In this document: positions 6,988 to 9,441 of the stretch, piece after piece
Layout: each line of letters begins with the position of its first letter
Position numbering within the stretch: position 1 is the first letter of the stretch
DNA from: an uncultured Clostridia bacterium
GTDB taxonomy: Bacteria; Bacillota; Clostridia; Christensenellales; Borkfalkiaceae
Direction: 5' to 3'
Length of the DNA: 59,336 nucleotides
Assembly: GCA_944363045.1 (NCBI GenBank)
Contig: CALVTT010000004.1
Span: 1 to 59,336, forward strand
The notes under the pieces: generated by a model
Databases searched by the model: none
The model's input: only the letters and a program-made list of their open reading frames with translations
Told to the model about the DNA's origin: nothing
Translations under genes and position numbers: made by a program

Positions 6988-7485
6988 ATGTCGGCAAATT
7001 TTGAAGCGAAAAAAGCGGTCGTCGAAGAGATCAAGGAAAAGATCCGCGCGAGCAAGTCCGTCGTCCTCGTTCAGTACGACAGGCTCACCGTGTCGGAAGT
7101 CACCGATCTTCGCAACCGGTTCCGCAACGCTTCGAGCGAGTATAAGGTGTACAAGAACACCCTCGTGAGAAAGGCGTTCGACGAGCTGGGCGTGAACGAT
7201 TTCGACAACGACCTCAACGGCGCGACGGCATTCGTGTTCTGCCCGGACGAGACGAGCGGCTGCTCCGTCCTTGCCAAGGCAGTCAAGGATGTGCCTGCTC
7301 TTGAAAGCAAAGTCGTTCCCAAGAGCGCCTATGTCAACGGCGCCTATGTGGATGTGGCGGGCATCAAGAAGCTGGCTTCCATCCCCTCGAGAGAGGTGCT
7401 CATCGCCAAGATGCTCGGGTGCCTGCAGGCTCCCATCGCAAATCTCGCCTATGTGCTGGGCGCGATCGCGAAAAACAAGGAATAA
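6988..7485 (+). CDS. rplJ: 50S ribosomal protein L10
   Basis: L10 anchors L7/L12 dimers to the ribosome and is the autoregulator of the rplJL unit through the leader upstream. The 165-residue protein begins MSANFEAKKAVVEEIKEKIR, contains the rRNA-binding segment VYKNTLVRKAF (about residues 54-64), and ends in an Ala-rich helix (LGCLQAPIANLAYVLGAIAK) that would carry L12. An open frame extends 36 codons upstream through the leader, but the start at 6988 has AAGGAGG 6 nt before it and fits the family N-terminus. rplL follows after 30 nt. Confidence 0.97.
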   Translation: MSANFEAKKAVVEEIKEKIRASKSVVLVQYDRLTVSEVTDLRNRFRNASSEYKVYKNTLVRKAFDELGVNDFDNDLNGATAFVFCPDETSGCSVLAKAVKDVPALESKVVPKSAYVNGAYVDVAGIKKLASIPSREVLIAKMLGCLQAPIANLAYVLGAIAKNKE

Positions 7486-7515
7486 TTTTCTTAAAAAAAC
7501 CGGAGGGTATTCAAA

Positions 7516-7884
7516 ATGGATGTTCAGAAGCTGATCGAAGAAGTCAAGGCAATGAGCGTGGTCGAACTCAACGACCTCGTCAAGGCACTCGAGGAGGAGT
7601 TCGGCGTGAGCGCTGCGGCTCCCGTCGCCGTTGCAGGCGCTGTTGCAGCCGAGGCTGCTCCCGCCGAGGAAGAGAAGACCGAGTTCAACATCGTCCTCAA
7701 GGACATCGGCGCCAACAAGATCGCCGTCATCAAGGCAGTCCGCGAGTTCACGGGTCTCGGCCTTGCAGAGGCAAAGAAGGCCGTCGAGGCGATGGGCGTG
7801 CTCAAGGAAGCAGTTCCCAAGGCAGACGCCGAGGCCGCTGTTGCCAAGCTCAAGGAAGCAGGCGCTACCGCAGAGCTTCAGTAA
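7516..7884 (+). CDS. rplL: 50S ribosomal protein L7/L12
   Basis: This is the multicopy acidic stalk protein that recruits translational GTPases. The 122-residue product has the N-terminal dimerisation helices ([20 protein letters not shown]), an Ala/Pro/Glu hinge (residues ~36-53), and the C-terminal factor-binding domain ([20 protein letters not shown] ... [12 protein letters not shown]). Length is typical. No rpoB-rpoC follows; a large palindromic element and a terminator end the unit. Confidence 0.98.
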
Positions 7885-7887
7885 CCT

Positions 7888-8172
7888 TAACCAAGTCAAA
7901 GTAAAGAGGACCCGATCGAAAGCGGGGATATTACCACATCTGCGGCGTTAAAGCCCTTGCCAATACGTCGTTGTATTGGCTGCGGTCTTTGCCTTGCATC
8001 TGCAGCAATCTACCCGCTTTCGATTGCTTCGCACCCTGAAAGAGCGCATTTTGCGATGGATTGGGGCGACAGACGAAGCAGCAATACCCCCAGCGGTATT
8101 GCAATGAGGATGAGCCCCAAGGCGCGCAAAAGACGCCTTTCAGGGCGGGTTCGGTTTATTTTGACTTGGTTA
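7888..8172. repeat. 285-bp two-armed palindromic element (MITE-like or structured RNA)
   Basis: Terminal inverted repeats 7888-7914 and 8146-8172 match at 23 of 27 positions. Arm A (7915-8024) closes with a perfect 12-bp stem (7915-7926 with 8013-8024), continues as an imperfect helix and ends in GCCAATAC/GTATTGGC (7959-7966 with 7973-7980, 6-nt loop). Arm B (8034-8145) closes with 9 bp (8034-8042 with 8137-8145), continues through TTTTGCG/CGCAAAA and TTGGGGC/GCCCCAA (8061-8067 with 8114-8120), and ends in GCAATACC/GGTATTGC (8081-8088 with 8095-8102, 6-nt loop). The whole would fold as a three-way junction. It has no plausible coding capacity and lies between rplL and its terminator, so it is probably co-transcribed. 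Confidence 0.8.
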
Positions 8173-8186
8173 CGATAACGAAAAAC

Positions 8187-8211
8187 GTCTCCCTGCGCGG
8201 AGACTTTTTTT
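8187..8211 (+). terminator. terminator of the rplJL unit
   Basis: GTCTCC (8187-8192) pairs with GGAGAC (8199-8204), with loop CTGCGC and a run of seven T. Confidence 0.9.
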
Positions 8212-8250
8212 ATGCCCCGAGGCGCCTCGGGCGAAAGCAATGAAGGATAG

Positions 8251-8289
8251 GGCGGCGCGGCGGGCGCTTTTTGCGCCCGCCGCGCCGCC
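8251..8289. repeat. 17-bp perfect GC-only hairpin
   Basis: Positions 8251-8267 are exactly complementary to 8273-8289, with a TTTTT loop. There is no T-tract on either side. It is one of several ultra-GC palindromes at gene ends in this window. Confidence 0.8.
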
Positions 8290-8429
8290 GCTCGTTCCCC
8301 GCCCCCGCCTGAGCGTCTTCGCCCTGCCGCTCGTTTTCCCGCCTGAGTGCCCTCGCCCTGCCGCTCGTTTTCCCGCCTGAGTGCCCTCGCCCTGCCGCCC
8401 GTTCCCCGCCCGAGCGCCCCCGTGCGGCC
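8290..8429. repeat. 34-bp tandem repeat, four units
   Basis: Two exact 34-bp units (8329-8362 and 8363-8396) are flanked by a degenerate 39-bp unit (8290-8328) and a degenerate 33-bp unit (8397-8429). The rest of 8212-8478 carries no gene. Confidence 0.85.
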
Positions 8430-8478
8430 GCAAAGGGGAGCGAACACGCAATTTTCATGCTTTATTTGGCAAAAGCAC

Positions 8479-8507
8479 TTGACGAATGCGGCGAATACGG
8501 GTAAAAT
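8479..8507 (+). promoter_or_regulatory. sigma-A promoter for the cyclophilin lipoprotein
   Basis: TTGACG (8479-8484), 17-nt spacer, TAAAAT (8502-8507). Confidence 0.8.
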
Positions 8508-8559
8508 ATTGGTAATTAGCGCACGGGGCGTCCCGCGCCGTGCGACGGAGGTCATTTTC

Positions 8560-9441
8560 GTGAAAAAACTTCACCGCATACTTTCCATCCTCTCTGCCGC
8601 AGTCATTTCCGCGGCGGCCGTCGCTATGTTTGCCGCCTGCGACAGCGCAGAGCCCGAGATCGTCATCACCTATACCTTCCTCGGCGAGGACTACGAGGTC
8701 GAATATACGCTTTCGCGCAAGGGCGCGCCGCAGACGGTGCAGCACTTCATCGAGCTCGCCGATGCCGGTTATTATGACGGCACCTGCATCCATCACTATG
8801 TCGATTCCGCCTTCCTCTACGGCGGCGCGTACGTCTGGGACGAGGAGACGGGGACCATCGTCGAAAAGGACTATTACAGCGAGGTCAAAGATCTCGACCT
8901 TACCCAGACTGTCTATACGCAGGGGGAGAACGGGCAGCGCGGCGAACCGCTCTACACGGTGCGCGGCGAGTTCTCCGCCAACGGCGTGGAGGGCAACAGC
9001 AAGTCGCTCTCGCACACGCAGGGCGCGCTCGCCATGTTCTATACGAGCAAGGGCGACAGCTCGTTGCGCGTGGGGACTGTCCGTTCGGACGGCGACGAGT
9101 ATCAGGAAGGGGATCCCTATAAGTACAACTGCGCGACGTCCATGTTCTATACCTTCACGGGCTCGGGCACCCGTTCCGACCTCGACGAGGAGTACACCGT
9201 GTTCGGCAGAACGAGCGATTACAGTCAGATGCAGGAGCTGCTCGACGCCATCGGCGACTATATCGATACGCTCGACAGCGCCGACGATTTCACCGAGACG
9301 GACCGCTATTTTGTCAACGAGCATGACCCCTACGACGCCGTGACGGGCACGACGACCTTCTCGGGCGAGAACATCTCGGAGGACTATGACGTTCCCGTCG
9401 AGCCCATCGTCATCAAGTCGGTGGAAGTCGTCAAGTATTAA
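8560..9441 (+). CDS. cyclophilin-type peptidyl-prolyl isomerase lipoprotein
   Basis: The predicted role is cis-trans isomerisation of prolyl bonds in exported proteins at the membrane surface. A lipoprotein signal (VKKLHRILSILSAAVISAAA..., lipobox MFAAC) is followed by a cyclophilin-like fold: GAPQTVQHFIELADAGYYDG (about residues 57-76), the HH-Y pattern, and GALAMFYT (about residues 157-164), the equivalent of the G-x-L-x-M-A strand. The usual FHR(V/I) catalytic segment is altered to CIHHYVDSAFLYGG, so catalytic activity is uncertain. A GTG start at 8560 is used because GGAGG (8547-8551) precedes it; upstream in-frame codons lie before the promoter. Confidence 0.8.
   Translation: MKKLHRILSILSAAVISAAAVAMFAACDSAEPEIVITYTFLGEDYEVEYTLSRKGAPQTVQHFIELADAGYYDGTCIHHYVDSAFLYGGAYVWDEETGTIVEKDYYSEVKDLDLTQTVYTQGENGQRGEPLYTVRGEFSANGVEGNSKSLSHTQGALAMFYTSKGDSSLRVGTVRSDGDEYQEGDPYKYNCATSMFYTFTGSGTRSDLDEEYTVFGRTSDYSQMQELLDAIGDYIDTLDSADDFTETDRYFVNEHDPYDAVTGTTTFSGENISEDYDVPVEPIVIKSVEVVKY

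Follow-up and report, generated by a model that had tools for sequence, protein, structure and literature searches.

The 285-bp stretch at positions 7888–8172 of the window (i.e., the whole 59,336-nt stretch of DNA that was analysed, contig C4, GenBank accession No. CALVTT010000004.1, of an uncultured gut bacterium from the Borkfalkiaceae, class Clostridia) is an insertion in this lineage, and it encodes a T-shaped fold, assigned to neither strand, which compensatory changes preserve while a large part of the sequence varies. With a probability of about 0.8, we consider it a MITE-like mobile element that is non-autonomous, has a conserved T fold, and inserted into a TA dinucleotide between rplL and its terminator. 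The evidence points to movement by a TA-targeting transposase, and the fold presumably serves the element rather than rplL.

The genome from which the window originates has a size of 1.77 Mb and a completeness of 79%. Upstream of the element, genes for the ribosomal proteins L10 and L7/L12 were recognized with Pfam, the latter (rplL) occupying positions 7516–7884 of the + strand (PF00542 and PF16320), and a terminator-like stem followed by seven T is localized downstream, at 8187–8211 of the same strand, which confirms the placement between rplL and its terminator given in the initial annotation. Directly past the terminator lies a G+C-rich perfect inverted repeat of 17 bp with a 5-nt loop (8251–8289), and a tandem repeat with a 34-bp unit (8304–8419; 3.4 copies, 90% matches) is also present 3′ of it.

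The T shape, consisting of an outer stem and two hairpins, turned out to be exact to the base. The stem is made by terminal inverted repeats of 27 bp, located at 7888–7914 (+) and 8146–8172 (−), which match at 23 positions as was originally reported and which, according to an inverted-repeat search, are enclosed by 34-nt arms of 79% complementarity. It carries an H2-type hairpin arm of 110 nt (7915–8024, −) and an H1-type hairpin arm of 112 nt (8034–8145, +), separated in the predicted fold by a 9-nt mini-hairpin. Both arms were delimited from the predicted fold and from pair counts in alignments of related arms (A2 and A1, respectively), the first folding better as RNA on the − strand here and the second on the + strand; the arm model R1 matches the H1 arm at 8031–8147 (−). 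The 8-bp tips were found in both hairpins, as GCCAATAC/GTATTGGC at 7959–7966/7973–7980 of the H2 arm and as GCAATACC/GGTATTGC at 8081–8088/8095–8102 of the H1 arm, but the AATAC/GTATT core that they were said to share is not family-wide, as the tip of the other arm is mostly GTGC/GCAC in relatives from the genus. The earlier statement that the element contains no gene stands insofar as a scan for open reading frames (ORFs) of at least 100 aa revealed none lying wholly within 7888–8172. The RNA fold of the element has a predicted energy of −139.4 kcal/mol versus a shuffle mean of −89.1 (z = −9.42), and none of 200 shuffled sequences was as good. The same applies to the DNA fold (−77.3, z = −8.10, 0 of 200 shuffles), and the single arms gave z values from −6.0 to −8.3 on either strand.

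For the comparative analysis of the insertion site, rplL matches were identified in 57 of 61 genus genomes and 30 of the matching loci were retrieved, so that 29 relatives were assessed. Searching with R1 revealed the arm at none of the 29 relatives' rplL loci, the window's own arm being the sole match. In the nearest relative (G001), whose rplL is 94% identical, the terminator directly follows the gene, starting no more than about 25 nt past the stop codon; in the window it is displaced 285 nt downstream. When the element is removed, the window flanks align with small gaps to the rplL site of G001, and likewise to that of G035; the G001 site differs by a few bases, and the duplication at the window copy is therefore not settled by its own empty site. 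A second copy, 89% identical to the window element, was found on contig C12 (L002, 1501–1786), where it interrupts a DinD-like gene whose flanks match NF008573 at 90–201 and 204–279. The two missing DinD residues are in frame only if exactly one TA is kept, and because this single retained TA restores the dinD frame, ends of this kind (type A) duplicate TA. By analogy with the C12 reading frame, the first TA of the left repeat and the last TA of the right repeat of the window copy are presumably the two copies of a target duplication. Among the 61 genus genomes, paired type A ends occur in the source genome only, with exactly these ends in two copies, and unpaired end matches with one mismatch were detected in seven other genomes. 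Dispersed copies, terminal repeats, the empty site in relatives and the TA duplication at the second copy thus support the palindromic MITE that had been proposed from the window.

Further copies were sought in the same genome, which yielded nine matches with the window element as a query and 14 with a relative as a query. The other copies with readable ends have type B ends, as do most copies of the genus; these read TACTGTAAGGGA and are inserted at A^T. Across the element kinds, the terminal sequences are TAACCAAGTCAAAG, TACTGTAAGGGA, and TAGCCGAAAG, and the pattern TACTGTAAGGGANNNNTANGNAC is present in 18 of 103 genus genomes. Within 254 loci, a biased set retrieved by similarity or by ends, we distinguished 62 paired type B elements: 39 of 275–285 bp, 10 of 385–395 bp, six of 490–634 bp, four of 137–229 bp, and three of 60–61 bp. 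The shortest forms are ends with the interior lost, and some of the longer ones have added sequence in an arm. In the mini-elements L020 1361–1420 (60 bp) and L021 1502–1562 (61 bp), the terminal repeats adjoin each other with hardly any interior left, as though the arms had been deleted between short repeats. In the element L006 1346–1732 and similar copies of 385–395 bp, the lower part of an arm is enlarged by about 110 bp of additional sequence, which is folded as well and is common to several copies and species.

L004 and L009 each have clean empty sites, with no gap at the junction, in three genomes, and L020 has them in two; the alignments for L003, L005, and L021 were equivocal. The clean sites indicate insertion between A and T with duplication of either AT or nothing, and A occupies position −1 in 120 of 122 type B flanks. 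A TA duplication by type B elements was also considered and rejected, since both the clean empty sites and the flanks fit AT or no duplication. Judged by eye, the L004 and L009 sites resemble promoters split by the insertion. A scan of species genomes for type B ends gave 111 stretches, and the 80 listed came from uncultured Clostridia, Gallimonas (Clostridia in the NCBI taxonomy), or Coproplasma.

The distribution of the arms was then followed across the order and the class. With at most nine candidates scored per genome and with stricter filters, R1 matched 35 of 396 genomes (18 of 142 genera) at the level of the order. For the class, the matches amounted to 55 of 391 genomes (34 of 222 genera), the source genome being included in both counts. 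In loci retrieved from the class matches, R1 and R2 adjoin on one strand at 13 places, and these are complete T elements with other ends. Several of them end in TA[AG]CC[AG]AA, which is type A-like, others in TAGGGTGA or TAGGATGA, and some ends are uncertain; G072, from the same order, has a third, type A-like kind of end. As the type A-like end was read in several class elements, the window copy probably carries the more widespread kind of end, and the type B ends look like a novelty of the genus. Single and tandem arms were found as well. Direct-tandem H1-type arms without terminal repeats are situated in G001 (L033, 1486–1596 and beyond), flanked by what appear by eye to be the final part of smc and the first part of ftsY, and tandem arm arrays with a period of about 150–155 bp occur in other families of the order (L299 1019–1711 and L300 28–457). 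Viral contigs gave no match to the type B end or to one apex pattern, a blastn search with the class element L370 gave none in plasmids and phages, and a guessed pattern for the lower arm was present in 0 of 379 loci. Several matches are located at contig ends, so such elements probably break the assemblies of these bacteria.

Compensatory change was analyzed at several levels of divergence. The two type A copies are 31 substitutions apart, and they were compared on the structure predicted from one copy alone, each in turn. On the window-copy structure, both partners changed in four pairs without loss of pairing (mean of 0.56 in 5000 random placements, reached in eight) and five pairs are broken versus a mean of 12.8 (as few in one of the 5000); on the C12-copy structure, there are four double-changed pairs (reached in two placements) and seven broken ones versus a mean of 14.7 (as few in four). 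In an alignment of 15 H1 arms (A1), pairing holds in 96.5% of cells, and both sides have changed in 20 of 32 pairs; the corresponding values for 20 H2 arms (A2) are 95.3% and 19 of 32; no shuffle out of 500 reached them, with the structures derived from the same alignments and kinship inflating the shuffle control. One of the five measures was weak for H1, i.e., the further pair types, which 37 of 500 shuffles reached. C_L031 was left out of the H1 set. Two other sets comprised 41 elements (43 before L171 and L037 were left out) and 19 divergent elements (from which L363, L365, L371, and the second L312 copy were left out).

The apparent internal loop of the H1 arm turned out to be ordered. 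Its single pairs (A1 columns 38–78, 41–75, and 44–72) are standard in all 15 arms, each with three or four pair types. In the 19 divergent elements, N1–N1′ is standard throughout (GC 10, AT 5, CG 3, TA 1) and N2–N2′ in 17; for the third pair, N0, both sides are occupied in no more than four elements, and three of these pair. Five of the six neighbouring positions are occupied by T.C or C.T in 16 to 18 of the 19 elements, and the sixth, nearest the tip, mostly by T.G. On the opposite strand, which is the + strand in the window, the motif reads as G.A/A.G steps in series, interspersed with single pairs, and the covarying columns place it in two purine-rich segments below the H1 tip, at 8069–8080 (5′ side) and 8103–8114 (3′ side). 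In nucleic acids generally, such steps can form sheared pairs, and they may do so in this motif.

Covariation could also arise without selection on the fold, if the element was a neutral MITE whose palindromes self-correct by template switching in replication. The near-palindromic arms fit such a process, and so do the copies whose interiors were lost (60–61 bp) or enlarged (385–634 bp). However, the fixed T.C/C.T mismatches persist beside covarying pairs even among the divergent elements, which weakens self-correction, because blind correction should convert fixed mismatches to pairs, and we regard this explanation as unlikely. The compensatory changes, found between copies as well as between genera, support the structured element foreseen in the initial annotation, as a property of the element itself. 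It should be stressed that these tests treat RNA and single-stranded DNA alike.

The two arms read as an inverted pair of oriented hairpins, with the mismatch motif in H1 only. At eight of the 13 class places, there is a further R1 match (E ≤ 0.01) to the H2 arm, located on the opposite strand, and at the same places the model gave no match to the opposite strand of the H1 arm itself. In terms of RNA energies, the reverse strand is the better-folding one for H1 in 33 of 40 elements of the genus set and in 12 of 14 others. For H2, it is the forward strand, in 34 and 9 elements of these two sets, respectively, and both preferences are combined in 28 of 40 and 9 of 14 (C_L031 was left out of this test, and L365 and L371 of the 14-element set). 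With DNA parameters, H1 is undecided (18 of 40) and H2 clear (40 of 40) in the genus set.

These observations bear on the other suggestion made from the window, a structured RNA or mRNA-stability element, and on a broader form of it, in which the host would keep the T or its hairpins for a function at the RNA level, through stability, termination, or as a small RNA. The very stable fold, the strong covariation and the position in the rplL transcript ahead of the terminator speak for such a role, as does the excess of G.T over A.C cells on one strand (94 versus 20, with 39 of the 94 in one column). Against it, the arm is absent from rplL in all relatives examined, and the opposite polarity of the arms counts against one RNA strand as the sole functional form. 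Furthermore, Rfam searches of positions 7400–8700 of the window and of loci L004, L035, L145, and L033 gave nothing above the gathering score. The gene context was evaluated after dropping elements shorter than 250 bp or short-flanked; of the 51 sites left, 19 were crossed by an ORF and set aside as well. By rough ORF calls, the 32 usable sites comprise 14 between divergent, 17 between tandem, and one between convergent genes. The 17 genus copies between tandem genes show no bias in orientation (eight co-directional and nine opposite); the calls are rough because one of the nine is the C12 copy, which truly lies inside dinD. Taken together, a host-kept RNA appears very improbable, and an RNA or mRNA-stability element of the rplL operon is unsupported, although some effect on rplL mRNA in this single species is conceivable.

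As regards the enzyme that would mobilise the MITE-like element, the search for an autonomous partner covered few enzyme families in incomplete genomes. The IS630 DDE domain PF13358 was present in none of the 61 genus genomes, and no autonomous type B copy was found among the 62 paired elements of the 254 loci, the largest having 634 bp and no pair of ends being 0.7–6 kb apart. Within the order, type A/C ends matched in 6 of 396 genomes, and none of the eight order loci read contained a transposase-sized pair of ends. A mover of another type was considered too, namely a Y1 tyrosine transposase (RAYT), for which the element would be a REP-like single-strand element with its arms as inverted REP hairpins. 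This would account for polar hairpins arranged as an inverted pair and for the existence of single and tandem hairpins; moreover, Y1 genes are present in some carriers, and three R2 matches were found in Y1 loci at E ≤ 1, two of them below 10−3, with matches about 1.2–1.4 kb from the Y1 genes of L322 and L337. In turn, the Y1 domain PF01797, detected in 22 of 60 genomes, does not follow the carriers (it is present in 2 of the 10 carriers from the genus, in 15 of the 31 R1 carriers from elsewhere, and in 5 of the 19 non-carriers searched), and R1 arms are absent from all 30 Y1 loci, for which reasons a Y1/RAYT partner was rejected. Long terminal repeats and a TA duplication are also unlike the REP features described in the available part of PMC3733652, and we regard the REP-like explanation as very improbable.

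Among the known kinds of elements, TA-ended MITEs come nearest, together with the CIR repeats, which have two arms. A literature search, with most subscription journals outside its coverage, returned no title or abstract start describing such elements in these bacteria. According to the available part of PMC2229807, RUP, Correia/NEMIS, and ERIC elements are about 100–200 bp long and form a stem-loop from their paired ends, without arms, and their folded transcripts are stable. They have in common with the present element the short length, terminal inverted repeats, TA ends, target duplication, and the lack of a transposase, and an IS630 element acting at TA targets was proposed as the mover of RUP. 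Compared by these descriptions only, the present element differs in its 285 bp, two long arms, strong covariation, and repeated mismatch motif. The Caulobacter CIR repeats, as presented in the same part of PMC2229807, resemble it in having two arms and a phylogenetically conserved secondary structure, but their arms carry a GANTC motif and are joined by a linker, whereas here the terminal repeats form an outer stem that bears the arms. Polar hairpins, often in inverted pairs, are also typical of REP/REPIN and CGTC-tagged repeats, and the CGTC repeats, reported mainly from alpha-Proteobacteria, likewise have no known transposase in the available parts of PMC3733652 and PMC6006769; those repeats, however, are 20–40 bp long with a 4-nt tag, in contrast to the present arms, which measure about 112 nt and are enclosed by long terminal repeats.

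A further comparison concerns the target. Tc1/mariner and IS630 elements duplicate TA, and so does the type A copy, whereas type B inserts at A^T instead; a difference is that the IS630 domain PF13358 was found in none of the 61 genus genomes.

For the MITE-like element, we propose that it inserted into the TA between rplL and the terminator in this lineage, and that a transposase acting in trans most likely cut and joined it by the terminal repeats. Its body is a T in which an outer stem carries two hairpins that point in opposite directions, and this fold is maintained across Clostridia while the ends and most of the sequence vary. The T may be read single-stranded during movement, may protect the element, or may limit harm to its neighbours. 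As a point against this proposal, a purely passive passenger should hardly preserve its arms to such a degree. A broader idea, which we put forward only tentatively and hold to be rather doubtful, is that of a class-wide superfamily defined by the folded T and not by its ends, in which inverted oriented hairpins, one of them with tandem G.A/A.G steps between single base pairs, would be read single-stranded by some factor and lineages would swap their ends along with the target rule (TA for type A, A^T for type B) while keeping the core.

Bacterial MITEs are often viewed as decayed transposons in which the fold arises incidentally from palindromy. In the present case, a T fold and a repeated non-canonical motif are kept over a bacterial class while the ends and much of the sequence drift, which raises the testable question of whether a mobile element may be selected for the shape of its nucleic acid, and of which factor would read it.
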